DNA of 64,000 nt from Pseudomonas fulva (GTDB taxonomy: Bacteria; Pseudomonadota; Gammaproteobacteria; Pseudomonadales; Pseudomonadaceae): NCBI RefSeq assembly GCF_023517795.1, contig NZ_CP082928.1, positions 5,146,001 through 5,210,000 on the forward strand, written 5' to 3'. The first letter of the stretch is position 1. Every line of letters starts with the position of its first letter. Positions 18,738 through 59,467 of this stretch are shown one piece after another. Both the position numbers and the translations under genes were made by a program. The notes beneath the pieces are model-generated. The model worked only from the letters and a program-made list of their open reading frames with translations. It ran no database searches and was not told where the DNA came from.

Positions 18738-19204
18738 GGTCAATCCTTCAAGTATGTGTTGGGGCGAACACCGAGCGTGCGCACAGGCGCAGGGCACGGC
18801 GCGAGCTCACCGCAGACGTTGAGGGGAAACCGGAAGGAGGAGGGCTTGTGGCGGGATGGACGAAGCGTATCGTGTGCTCGCTGCCGGGTAGGCGAGCGGT
18901 GGTGCGTGCAGGCCCGTGGACGCCCTTGGCACCGTGCAACTCGATACGTGAAACGCTTCCCCGTCCCTCAGGACAACCTCGTTCCAGTCGCCATCTCGTC
19001 GAACTGCCTTGTGGGCTTAACAACACGAATCGATCCCTGCGGTAAGCGGGAACGATTCGGAGGCTCCGTTTCCGGAACCCCTGATTAGCGGGAGCGAGGC
19101 CATCATGCGACCGACGAAAATGTTCGTCAATCGTTTTTGTAGTGTTTTTTAAGGAGTACTACATAAGTCTTAGATCGACCATATGGTCACGTTTTACGGG
19201 GCTT
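18738..19204. other. 467-bp intergenic region upstream of aceA
   Basis: It should hold the aceA promoter on the minus strand. Visible structure on the plus strand is a small hairpin GACGAA-AATG-TTCGTC (19113-19128) followed by AATCGTTTTTG, and an inverted repeat TGTAGT...ACTACA (19138-19163). I see no protein-coding frame with normal codon use and no recognised RNA family. Confidence 0.4.
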
Positions 19205-35161: not shown

Positions 35162-37570
35162 TTGAAGAACTCTAGCTCTACAGCACCGGCGCCGGCCTGG
35201 CGCCAGCAATTGCCATATCGCCTCAAAGAGGGCGCCCTGATCGCTCTTGGGGCGTTGTGTCTCTACGTGTGGATGGCGCTGCTCACCTATGACCCGGCCG
35301 ATCCGGGCTGGACGCACACCAGCAACGTCGAGCAGGTGCACAATGCCGCCGGGCGGGCCGGTGCCTGGTTCGCCGACGTGCTGTTCATGGCCCTCGGTTA
35401 TTTCGCCTACCTGTTTCCGCTGCTGCTGGGCATCAAGGCCCTGCAGGTGTTCCGGGCCCGCCACGAGCCCTGGCACTGGAGCGGCTGGCTGTTCTCCTGG
35501 CGGCTGATCGGCCTGGTGTTCCTGGTGCTGTCCGGTGCGGCGCTGGCCTACATCCATTTCCAGAGCAGCGCCAACATGCCGGCCTCGGCCGGTGGCGCGC
35601 TGGGCGAGAGCCTCGGGCAACTGACCGTCGCGGCGCTCAACGTGCAGGGCAGCACGCTGCTGTTCATCGCCCTGTTCCTGTTCGGCCTGACCGTGTTCAC
35701 CGACCTGTCCTGGTTCAAGGTCATGGACCTGACCGGCAAGATCACCCTCGACCTGCTGGAGCTGGTGCAGAGCGTGGTCAATCGCTGGTGGAGTTCGCGC
35801 CAGGATCGCAAGCAACTGGTCGCCCAGCTGCGTGAAGTGGACGAGCGCGTGCATGACGTCGCCGCCCCGGTGGTCAAGGACCGCCGCGAGCAGGCCAAGG
35901 TCAAGGAACGCCTGATCGAGCGCGAAGAGTCGCTCAACAAGCACATGAGCGAACGCGAGAGCCGCCCGGCACCGGTGATATCCGCCCCGGTGGCGCCCAA
36001 GGCACCGGAGCCGAGCAAGCGCGTGCAGAAGGAAAAGCAGGTGCCGCTGTTCGTCGACAGCGCCGTGGAAGGCACCTTGCCGCCCATTTCGCTGCTCGAC
36101 CCGGCCGAAGCCAAGAAGGTCGAGTACTCGCCCGAGTCCCTGGCTGGCGTCGGCCACCTGCTGGAAATCAAACTCAAGGAATTCGGCGTCGAGGTCACGG
36201 TGGACTCGATCCACCCGGGCCCGGTGATCACCCGCTACGAAATCCAGCCGGCCGCCGGCGTCAAGGTCAGCCGCATCGCCAACCTGGCCAAGGACCTGGC
36301 CCGCTCCCTGGCGGTGACCAGCGTGCGCGTCGTGGAAGTGATTCCCGGCAAGACCACCGTGGGCATCGAAATTCCCAACGAGAATCGCCAGATCGTGCGT
36401 TTCTCCGAAGTGCTGTCCACCCCGGAGTACGATGACGCCAAGTCGCCGGTCGCCCTGGCCCTGGGCCATGACATCGGCGGCAAGCCGGTGATCACCGACC
36501 TGGCGAAGATGCCCCACCTGCTGGTGGCCGGTACCACCGGCTCCGGTAAGTCGGTGGGCGTCAACGCGATGATCCTGTCGATCCTGTTCAAGTCGAGCCC
36601 GGAAGATGCGCGGCTGATCATGATCGACCCGAAGATGCTCGAGCTGTCGATCTACGAAGGCATTCCGCACCTCTTGTGCCCGGTGGTCACCGACATGAAG
36701 GAGGCGGCCAACGCCCTGCGCTGGAGCGTGGCGGAGATGGAGCGCCGCTACAAGCTGATGTCGAAGATGGGCGTGCGCAACCTGGCGGGCTTCAACCGCA
36801 AGGTCAAGGACGCCATCGAGGCCGGCGAGCCGCTCGCCGACCCGCTGTATCGTCGCGAGAGCATGGAAGACGAAGCGCCGCTGCTCAAGCCGCTGCCGAC
36901 CATCGTGGTGGTGGTCGACGAATTCGCCGACATGATGATGATCGTCGGCAAGAAGGTCGAGGAACTGATCGCCCGTATCGCCCAGAAGGCGCGGGCCGCC
37001 GGCATCCACCTAATTCTCGCCACCCAGCGCCCCTCGGTGGACGTGATCACCGGCCTGATCAAGGCCAACATCCCGACCCGTATGGCCTTCCAGGTATCGA
37101 GCAAGATCGACTCGCGCACCATCATCGACCAGGGCGGCGCCGAACAGCTGCTCGGCCACGGTGACATGCTCTACATGCCGCCGGGCACCAGCCTGCCGAT
37201 CCGCGTGCATGGCGCCTTCGTGTCCGACGATGAAGTGCACCGCGTGGTCGAGGCCTGGAAGCTGCGTGGCGCCCCCGATTACAACGAAGACATTCTCGCC
37301 GGCTCGGAAGAGGGCGGCGGCGGTGGCTTCGACGGCGGCAGCGGCGGTGAGGGTGGTGAAGACAGCGAAAGTGATCCTTTGTACGACGAAGCGGTCAACT
37401 TCGTACTGGAAAGCCGCCGCGCCTCCATCTCCTCGGTGCAGCGCAAGCTGAAGATCGGCTACAACCGCGCTGCCCGGATGATCGAAGCCATGGAAATGGC
37501 CGGCGTCGTGACACCGATGAACACCAACGGCTCGCGCGAGGTCATCGCACCCGGGCAGAACCGCGATTAA
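35162..37570 (+). CDS. ftsK: DNA translocase FtsK
   Basis: Septum-anchored DNA pump that clears the chromosome from the division site and activates XerD at dif. The 802-residue protein has four N-terminal membrane segments (about residues 20-195), then a short charged linker. The RecA-like motor has Walker A GTTGSGKS near residue 457 and Walker [14 protein letters not shown]. The C-terminal winged-helix gamma domain, after a Gly-rich spacer, starts near [20 protein letters not shown] and binds KOPS. The likely start is TTG 35162, giving MKNSS; no ATG fits the family N-terminus. A 6-codon frame overlaps this start. Confidence 0.95.
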
Positions 37571-57732: not shown

Positions 57733-57759
57733 CCGATGCCGTCATGGCGACGGCATCGG
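57733..57759. other. Hairpin after gntP
   Basis: Perfect 11-bp stem CCGATGCCGTC / GACGGCATCGG with a 5-nt loop. It lacks a T tract on either strand, so it may stabilise the gntP mRNA end rather than terminate. Confidence 0.5.
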
Positions 57760-58112
57760 TGCGGGATTACACACCGTTCCAGATCTGGAACAACCCGGCA
57801 GCTTGCTATGCGGCGCCCTGGAACGTGTTCATCTGGTGCCGTACGCAGCGCCAGATCCTGGCGAACGACCCACGATATTTCTCAGGCACAACGCGAGCTG
57901 AAAGCAGGACGCCAGCCGCGGCATCTTCGACAGCCATATCTGCAAAGCCGTCCAAGCACCGTGCGCATGCCCATGGCGAGCATCTTTCGCAAATTAGAGT
58001 GTTCGGCATCAGCAGCGGCCACTTTGAAGGGACTGACGATTACGTAGTGAGTTTTGCAGCGGATGATTACAAGAACCTGGCAGGAGAACGGCTGGCATCG
58101 TTCAGTACATAA
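57744..58112 (+). CDS. Uncharacterised ORF abutting dif (122 aa), doubtful or degenerate
   Basis: I do not recognise this frame. The first 45 codons (RDYTPFQIWNNPAACYAAPW and on) have normal GC-rich third positions. From the CCACGATATTTCTCA point on, third positions become mixed, with rare codons such as AGA, ATA and CGA. The end reads VFGISSGHFEGTDDYVVSFA. The frame begins within the gntP hairpin, has no ribosome site, and its TAA takes the first base of dif. It may be a relic or chimera of older genes, or a chance frame. Confidence 0.3.
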   Translation: MATASVRDYTPFQIWNNPAACYAAPWNVFIWCRTQRQILANDPRYFSGTTRAESRTPAAASSTAISAKPSKHRAHAHGEHLSQIRVFGISSGHFEGTDDYVVSFAADDYKNLAGERLASFST

Positions 58113-58139
58113 CTTCGCATAATGTATATTATGTTAAAT
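58112..58139 (+). other. dif: Chromosome dimer resolution site dif
   Basis: The 28-bp site is seen as XerC arm ACTTCGCATAA, centre TGTATA and XerD arm TTATGTTAAAT. From memory of the E. coli dif, 25 of 28 positions are the same and all three differences are in the outer XerC arm. The recombinases XerC and XerD act here, after FtsK activation, to resolve chromosome dimers at the terminus. It lies in a gene-poor, relatively AT-rich stretch. Confidence 0.93.
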
Positions 58140-58311
58140 TGCATATACGAAGCTGCCAGCCGCTAGATCAACCTGTGCCCCGTTTGCCTCAAACCTCGAC
58201 GACGATGGCACGCTGAGTCGCCTGGCATTTCTCCTCGCTCAATCTTCTATCCATAGCAATCTTATCAGCCATGAACAGCGCTGCCCGTTCTTGGGAAGAT
58301 TTCGCGCCGGA
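58140..58311. other. Gene-poor stretch right of dif
   Basis: It holds the right arm TGCCAGCCG (58154-58162) of an inverted repeat around dif, and a minus-strand 21-codon frame (58189-58254). That frame ends RAIVVEV and shares 20 of 21 bases at 58192-58212 with the Rnk domain coding region of the next gene (around 58575-58596). No complete gene is visible. Confidence 0.5.
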
Positions 58312-59220
58312 TTACAGGTGATAATCACCCGCCGCCTCCGGCTGGTAAAGCACCTTCCTGATCTCGATCTGCCGCGTGCGACCCGCTATGCGCCAGTTGA
58401 TGGCATCCCCCTCCTGATAACCCAGGATCGCGGCGCCGAGGTCGGAACACACCGAATGCTTGCCAGCGCTGTGGTCGGCGTCTTCGGGATAAACCAGGGC
58501 CACTTCGAACGCTTCGTCGTCCAGCTGCACCAGGGCCCTGGAGTTCATGGTGACGACATTGCTGGGCACCTGATCCGCCTCGACGACGATGGCGCGCTCG
58601 AGCTCATGTTCGAGTTGGACGACTGGGCCTTCCTCCAGCGCGATCAGGCTGTCGAGCTTGGCCTTGTCCATTTCGGTGATGTAGATCCCAGGTGCATCGC
58701 GGAACGCATCTTCGCGCAGCAGCTGCAGGTAGCGCCCGGCCGTCATGGCCCATAACGTCATGGTCGGCGTTTCGCTCTCGAGTCTGAAGCCGCTGCGTTC
58801 AAAGGCTTTCTGCGAGCGCTGGTTGTCCGGATGGATCTTGGCGATCAGCGTCTTGGCCCGCATGTCGAGGAAAGCCAGTTTCATGCTTTCGCGGATCGTA
58901 CGGGTGCCCAGGTTCTGCCCCCACTTGTCGCTGTCGCCGATGGCCAGGACGATTTCGCACGCCGAGCCGGTCTTGATCAGACGCACGAAGCCAACCGGAT
59001 CGTCATGCCGGTCGTAGGCCATGAAGAATCGGCCGCCCTGGTTGAACAGATGGGTCAGAATCGGCAACTGAGTCCGATCGATGGCGTGTTCGATGGAGCG
59101 GGAAACATCACGCGAATCGCTCAGGTAGCAGGTAACGCGCTCATCTTCCAACCAGTCCATCAGCTTCAGCGCATGTGCCCGGGTAATTTCAGGGCACAGC
59201 GAAATGAAAGGCTTGTTCAT
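58312..59220 (-). CDS. Bifunctional GNAT N-acetyltransferase / Rnk-type (GreA/GreB C-terminal) protein
   Basis: A 302-residue fusion. Residues 1-165 are a RimJ/RimL-like GNAT domain (PISLCPEITRAHALKLMDWL-like start, LGTRTIRESMKLAFLDMRAK, NQRSQKAFERSGFRLESETP). Residues about 175-302 match the regulator of nucleoside diphosphate kinase (Rnk), with an N-terminal coiled arm (ITEMDKAKLDSLIALEEG) and a GreA/GreB-type C-terminal domain (LVYPEDADHSAGKHSVCSDL, AILGYQEGDAINW). Rnk-like proteins bind RNA polymerase or Ndk. The acetyl target is unknown. ATG 59220 is preferred; GTG 59229 is three codons earlier. Confidence 0.85.
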   Translation of the reverse strand: MNKPFISLCPEITRAHALKLMDWLEDERVTCYLSDSRDVSRSIEHAIDRTQLPILTHLFNQGGRFFMAYDRHDDPVGFVRLIKTGSACEIVLAIGDSDKWGQNLGTRTIRESMKLAFLDMRAKTLIAKIHPDNQRSQKAFERSGFRLESETPTMTLWAMTAGRYLQLLREDAFRDAPGIYITEMDKAKLDSLIALEEGPVVQLEHELERAIVVEADQVPSNVVTMNSRALVQLDDEAFEVALVYPEDADHSAGKHSVCSDLGAAILGYQEGDAINWRIAGRTRQIEIRKVLYQPEAAGDYHL

Positions 59221-59467
59221 CTTCACCACACATATTTGAAGGATGAAAGCCCTTCATGGCTATGGCCATGACGGTTCTTTCGGCAACCGGCAAGTCTAAT
59301 ACATCGGGCGCGTGATTCCGACCCGCTTGAACATGGTTGGCTGTTACTCGGCAGGTCGGCGCCCTCTCCCGCCTTAGACAGCTGCGCAATTTCTACATAC
59401 CGTTCACGCAAGCCGGGCCGAATAAAGCACCTGGCGATGAGCAAGGCTCACCACCAGGCGGCGCGCC

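Follow-up and report, generated by a model that had tools for sequence, protein, structure and literature searches.

A single dif site on a Pseudomonas chromosome

The 28 bp at positions 58112-58139 (plus strand) of the DNA analyzed here, a 64,000-nucleotide stretch of the Pseudomonas fulva chromosome (bases 5,146,001-5,210,000, hereafter the window), are almost certainly the only dif site of this chromosome, and thereby the predicted site at which XerC and XerD resolve chromosome dimers. The assignment is strongly supported because the site is present in a single copy, lies where KOPS polarity and GC skew switch, is accompanied by genes for XerC, XerD and FtsK-gamma, and is matched by sites in most genomes of the genus. 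The dif site itself is ordinary: it is a textbook site in a new genome.

The site reads ACTTCGCATAA TGTATA TTATGTTAAAT in the window sequence. An XerC-binding arm (58112-58122), delimited according to the arm definition in the available part of PMC2731167 and with binding as a prediction, a central hexanucleotide (58123-58128) and an XerD-binding arm (58129-58139) follow each other on the plus strand in an 11 + 6 + 11 bp layout. The XerD arm is conserved, and columns 18-27 of the alignment are nearly invariant among 110 loci of the genus. A previous reading based on the sequence only had already proposed a dif site with this exact order and spacing of arms and centre, and both the sequence and shuffling bore this out: no match to the 28-mer with up to three mismatches was obtained in 100 dinucleotide shuffles, and no rival was found in the window. 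The site is intergenic, being located between gntP and a GNAT-Rnk gene, and its G+C content is low (G or C at 6 of the 28 positions, versus about 64% for the window).

Compared with the dif site of E. coli (one chromosome), 25 of the 28 bases are the same. The three differences that had been noted beforehand are indeed there, but they fall on XerC-arm positions 1, 2 and 4 and are therefore nearly, though not exactly, the outer bases of this arm. The likeness to the dif site of P. aeruginosa PAO1 is closer, with 26 of 28 bases the same, an identical centre and XerD arm, and differences at XerC-arm positions 1 and 2; this site is also located near the GC-skew maximum (PMC2731167, in the text available).

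The earlier expectation of one chromosomal copy was confirmed by screening the whole genome, a single contig of 5,437,136 bases, for the 24-base core CGCATAATGTATATTATGTTAAAT. When up to three mismatches were allowed, one copy was detected, and the reversed control pattern gave no match in this genome. The dif core was also matched, again at three mismatches or fewer, in 178 of the 199 genomes of the genus that were surveyed. A single match was obtained in 177 of these and two matches in the other one, in which the second is located on another contig; the remaining 21 genomes gave no match at this threshold.

Next to copy number, the chromosomal context places the site at a switch of polarity. 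The ratio of forward to reverse KOPS (GGGNAGGG) is 33:0 in the 200 kb to the left of dif and 4:29 in the 200 kb to its right. In the 400 kb around dif, cumulative GC skew reaches its maximum 13 kb to the right of the site, so that the change of sign anticipated near 58.1 kb does occur within about that distance; this falls inside the interquartile range of 2.1-21.4 kb given in the accessible part of PMC2731167. Twenty further 20-kb samples fit the two-arm pattern expected from dnaA, with exceptions: the skew is weakly positive at 350 kb and about zero at 2.29 Mb, and five of the twenty samples have a single opposed KOPS.

The genome encodes XerC, XerD and FtsK-gamma, all with scores above the curated cut-offs. 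The ftsK reading frame, listed with 802 aa, occupies positions 35162-37570 on the plus strand and contains the FtsK_gamma domain at 37367-37549 (PF09397 match at G000:C1:5183367-5183549, E 3e-27). The gene lies 20.5 kb to the left of dif, the site where its product would act. According to established Xer biology, FtsK, likely steered by KOPS, would bring the two dif copies of a dimeric chromosome together at the division septum, and XerC and XerD would then recombine them to give chromosome monomers before the cell divides; the site would be bound and synapsed, FtsK-gamma would activate XerD, and strands would be exchanged.

A different origin of the site has to be weighed, namely that it was left behind as an attachment site by a phage or another element integrating through the host XerCD, and is not the chromosome's own dif. 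Dif-like sites are present in elements of this kind, with positions 58112-58146 being matched by Acinetobacter phage M02 (91.4% over 35 bases), and the DNA beside dif turns over in relatives (see below). However, the site is single-copy and placed at the KOPS and skew switch, most genomes of the genus have the same core, and scanning the surrounding 400 kb with a weight matrix did not reveal a second dif-like site, not even a degenerate one within 200 kb on either side. We therefore consider a scar extremely improbable, and an element bounded by two dif-like sites was likewise rejected, as no second site was found in these 400 kb or, at three mismatches, in the genome.

dif and the end of replication

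The sequence-only reading had also placed the replication terminus inside the window, which goes too far. The dnaA gene is located at 2,245,269, and the opposite point of the chromosome at about 4,963,837, which is 240 kb to the left of dif and 182 kb outside the window. The window thus crosses the dimer-resolution and segregation terminus, and not demonstrably the replication terminus; it is in the former sense that the site fixes the window on the chromosome map.

For P. aeruginosa PAO1-UW, the available text of PMC6199493 places the end of replication opposite oriC, at a distance from dif, and the switch of GC skew and KOPS at dif itself. A GC-skew test thus locates dif, which need not be the point where the forks meet. 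It could still be that in P. fulva the forks meet in the dif region as well, given that GC skew and KOPS switch at dif and that the two replication arms from dnaA to dif, 2.96 and 2.48 Mb long, are only mildly unequal. We regard this as improbable, considering the PAO1-UW case, the distance between the window and the point opposite dnaA, and the lack of a match to the Tus family. E. coli has both Tus and MatP, whereas searches of the P. fulva genome for the Tus (Ter) and MatP families gave no match; both searches recovered the E. coli control. The site fixes the segregation terminus of this chromosome, and a common shortcut is corrected: dif, or the GC-skew switch, need not be the place where replication ends.

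Conserved boxes flank the 28-bp site

To the outside of the 28-mer, the loci of the genus contain a further conserved pattern. A total of 126 loci, originating from 124 of the 178 matching genomes, were placed in an ungapped register; two loci were entered twice, and dereplication left 110 loci at under 60% flank identity. In these 110 loci, dif is flanked by mirror-image boxes with the outward consensus N-A-Y-R-T-A-T-T from either edge. Column information is up to 0.97 bits at positions 30-36 on the right and up to 1.13 bits at positions -6 to -4 on the left, and the far-flank columns have a mean of 0.03 bits and a maximum of 0.17. In the inverted register, the two box profiles agreed best at zero shift (1.32, versus 0.68 for the next-best shift and a null maximum of 0.20). 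The best value in the direct register, 0.81, is also above the null, and part of the signal is therefore simple purine-pyrimidine alternation.

At the dif site of P. fulva, the left box (positions -7 to -1; 58104-58110) reads ATGTACT in the outward direction, with one misfit to the genus consensus AYRTATT. The right box (positions 30-36; 58141-58147), assigned on conservation, persistence and window score, reads GCATATA against the same consensus. Jointly, the two boxes are in the 0.07% tail of the window background; some places in the window outscore them, so that dif cannot be recognized by the boxes alone.

The conservation is not accounted for by common descent of the flanks, because the boxes persist where the flanks are unrelated. 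Among pairs of loci whose outer flanks are at most 30% identical (4945 pairs on the right and 5071 on the left), column agreement was up to 63% in the right box and 70% in the left box. Bootstrapping of all non-identical pairs resulted in mean identities of 0.49 for the right box and 0.48 for the left box, compared with 0.26 for the background.

The boxes are less pronounced in other gammaproteobacteria, but the idea that they are exclusive to Pseudomonas was rejected. The loci outside the genus comprised 97 from other gammaproteobacteria; 99 had been tried, two of which were left out because their flanks were short. When up to one mismatch was allowed, the left core ATAY was present in 83 of the 110 genus loci and 29 of these 97 (background 6.6%), and the right core RTRT in 101 and 47, respectively (background 12.4%). 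When scored leave-one-out, the top 1% of the window background is reached by 101 of the 110 loci of the genus and by 27 of the 97 others; the flanks of the E. coli dif also fit the boxes, and the box score of the one site analyzed is in the 0.07% tail. Moreover, a pattern specifying both boxes exactly, and with them the dif variant, was found at 69 loci, 27 of which lie outside the genus: besides 42 from Pseudomonas, there are 11 from Alteromonas, 4 each from Marinobacter and Marinobacterium, and 8 others. In Salinimonas chungwhensis (locus L294), partial GCATAATACTTA units are present directly to the left of dif, and their sequence is similar to that of the inner XerC arm combined with the left box.

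Because they are conserved where the neighbouring DNA is not, we infer from these alignments that the boxes may be outer contact points for the recombinase synapse or for a partner protein. Alternatively, the boxes could be due to a general requirement for flexible or AT-rich DNA next to dif and not be contact sites: their AT content exceeds that of the genome, purines and pyrimidines alternate in them, and other gammaproteobacteria have a loose AT preference at the same place. That explanation appears somewhat unlikely, since the pattern depends on the position and is mirror-symmetric, and position 32 is a G in 78 of the 110 genus loci. The boxes are likely to be part of the working site, which we regard as a modest new lead. 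Should they be functional, dif would have to be defined as longer than 28 bp. In the accessible portions of the respective papers, the site is described as having 28 (PMC2731167) or 29 (PMC9765430) bases, without a fixed neighbourhood. No account of the boxes was found in the literature covered, including the available parts of PMC2731167, PMC5357621, PMC9765430, PMC6199493 and PMC6053426; many subscription papers are outside this coverage, and the boxes may have been reported there.

An accessory element on the XerC side in relatives

Many loci of the genus contain additional conserved bases on the XerC side, TTGAAAT-like near -40 to -34 and GCCC near -20 to -17, mostly at a fixed distance. 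This fainter accessory element, which is described here as a sequence element only, is in the 1% tail at 61 of the 110 genus loci and at 2 of the 97 loci of other gammaproteobacteria (leave-one-out score). It is absent at the dif site of P. fulva, where the corresponding bases are in the 18.7% tail of the background. For the DNA upstream of dif in relatives, a hairpin having TGAAATCTG as its loop was considered and discarded, because stems of at least 5 were found in only 8 of the 41 loci having the A-rich core. The plasmid Xer sites cer and psi are composed of a core Xer site and further conserved DNA on the XerC side. Many Pseudomonas dif loci are similar to them in having conserved DNA on that side, whereas the dif site studied here does not have the upstream element.

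Tentatively, these observations could be combined as follows. The Pseudomonas dif would be a composite site of about 44 bp, consisting of the core and the two boxes, often with the accessory element (about -42 to -14), and bound by a candidate partner of XerCD-FtsK; foreign DNA, with candidate defence genes among it, would also be acquired repeatedly at dif, which would form its exact junction. We put this forward as a possible picture that we would not yet favour.

Turnover of the DNA beside dif

When the 300 bases on each side of dif were compared by BLAST for the 126 genus loci, 271 pairs were related on the left and 246 on the right, but only 26 on both sides, two of which are the loci entered twice. 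Closely related genomes can differ sharply from dif onward. In three close relatives having left flanks that are about 97% identical, the common chromosome resumes about 110, 1855 and 7075 bases past dif. The intervening stretches to the right of dif in these relatives have a G+C content of 52-53%, versus 61% beyond them, and do not contain a second dif-like site. An FRG-domain gene in one of the stretches matches the candidate defence family PDC-S15, and four other proteins encoded there gave nothing firm, with one weak match to ZacB. Low-G+C DNA of this kind is located immediately to the right of dif in loci L271 and L273, and the FRG-domain PDC-S15 candidate defence gene is part of it.

The left side changes too, as genomes G209 and G142 have a common right flank but different left DNA next to dif. 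The left flanks of loci L020 and L123 are unrelated, and their right flanks are 99.6% identical from about 30 bases off dif.

Integrative elements with two dif sites were considered as the cause of the turnover and are unproven there. In 17 right-side stretches (sixteen of 20 kb and one of 1.6 kb) and 3 left-side stretches, the score of a second site never exceeded 2 bits, compared with 32 or more for true sites. The turnover may result from Xer integration followed by loss of the second site, or from ordinary gain of DNA near the terminus. The available text of PMC9765430 describes a comparable situation for the dif site of Legionella, which is used by the mobile element LME-1: it is likewise a short conserved site near the GC-skew maximum with a changing neighbourhood, but it differs in its sequence and in being served by a single recombinase, XerL.

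Immediate surroundings of the site

The last base of an open reading frame of 122 aa without a Pfam match (57744-58112) coincides with the first base of dif; this frame may have arisen by chance or may be what is left of a decayed gene. A 9-nt inverted repeat is present around dif (CGGCTGGCA at 58089-58097 and TGCCAGCCG at 58154-58162). A hairpin enclosing dif was not retained, as the strand fold is not unusual (z -1.48), with an equal or better fold in 15 of 200 shuffles. No Rfam match at the gathering threshold indicates an RNA gene at dif, the sole match in the window being the SrbA small RNA (RF02872) located elsewhere, at 18858-19085 (185 bits).

The GNAT-Rnk gene to the right of dif is a single frame (58312-59229) in which a GNAT acetyltransferase domain is fused to Rnk_N and GreA/GreB C-terminal domains. 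A piece of this gene recurs in the spacer between the gene and dif, forming a 21-base direct repeat (58194-58214 and 58578-58598) that is 95% identical. The GNAT-Rnk/GreA-GreB gene also adjoins dif in the relative L078.
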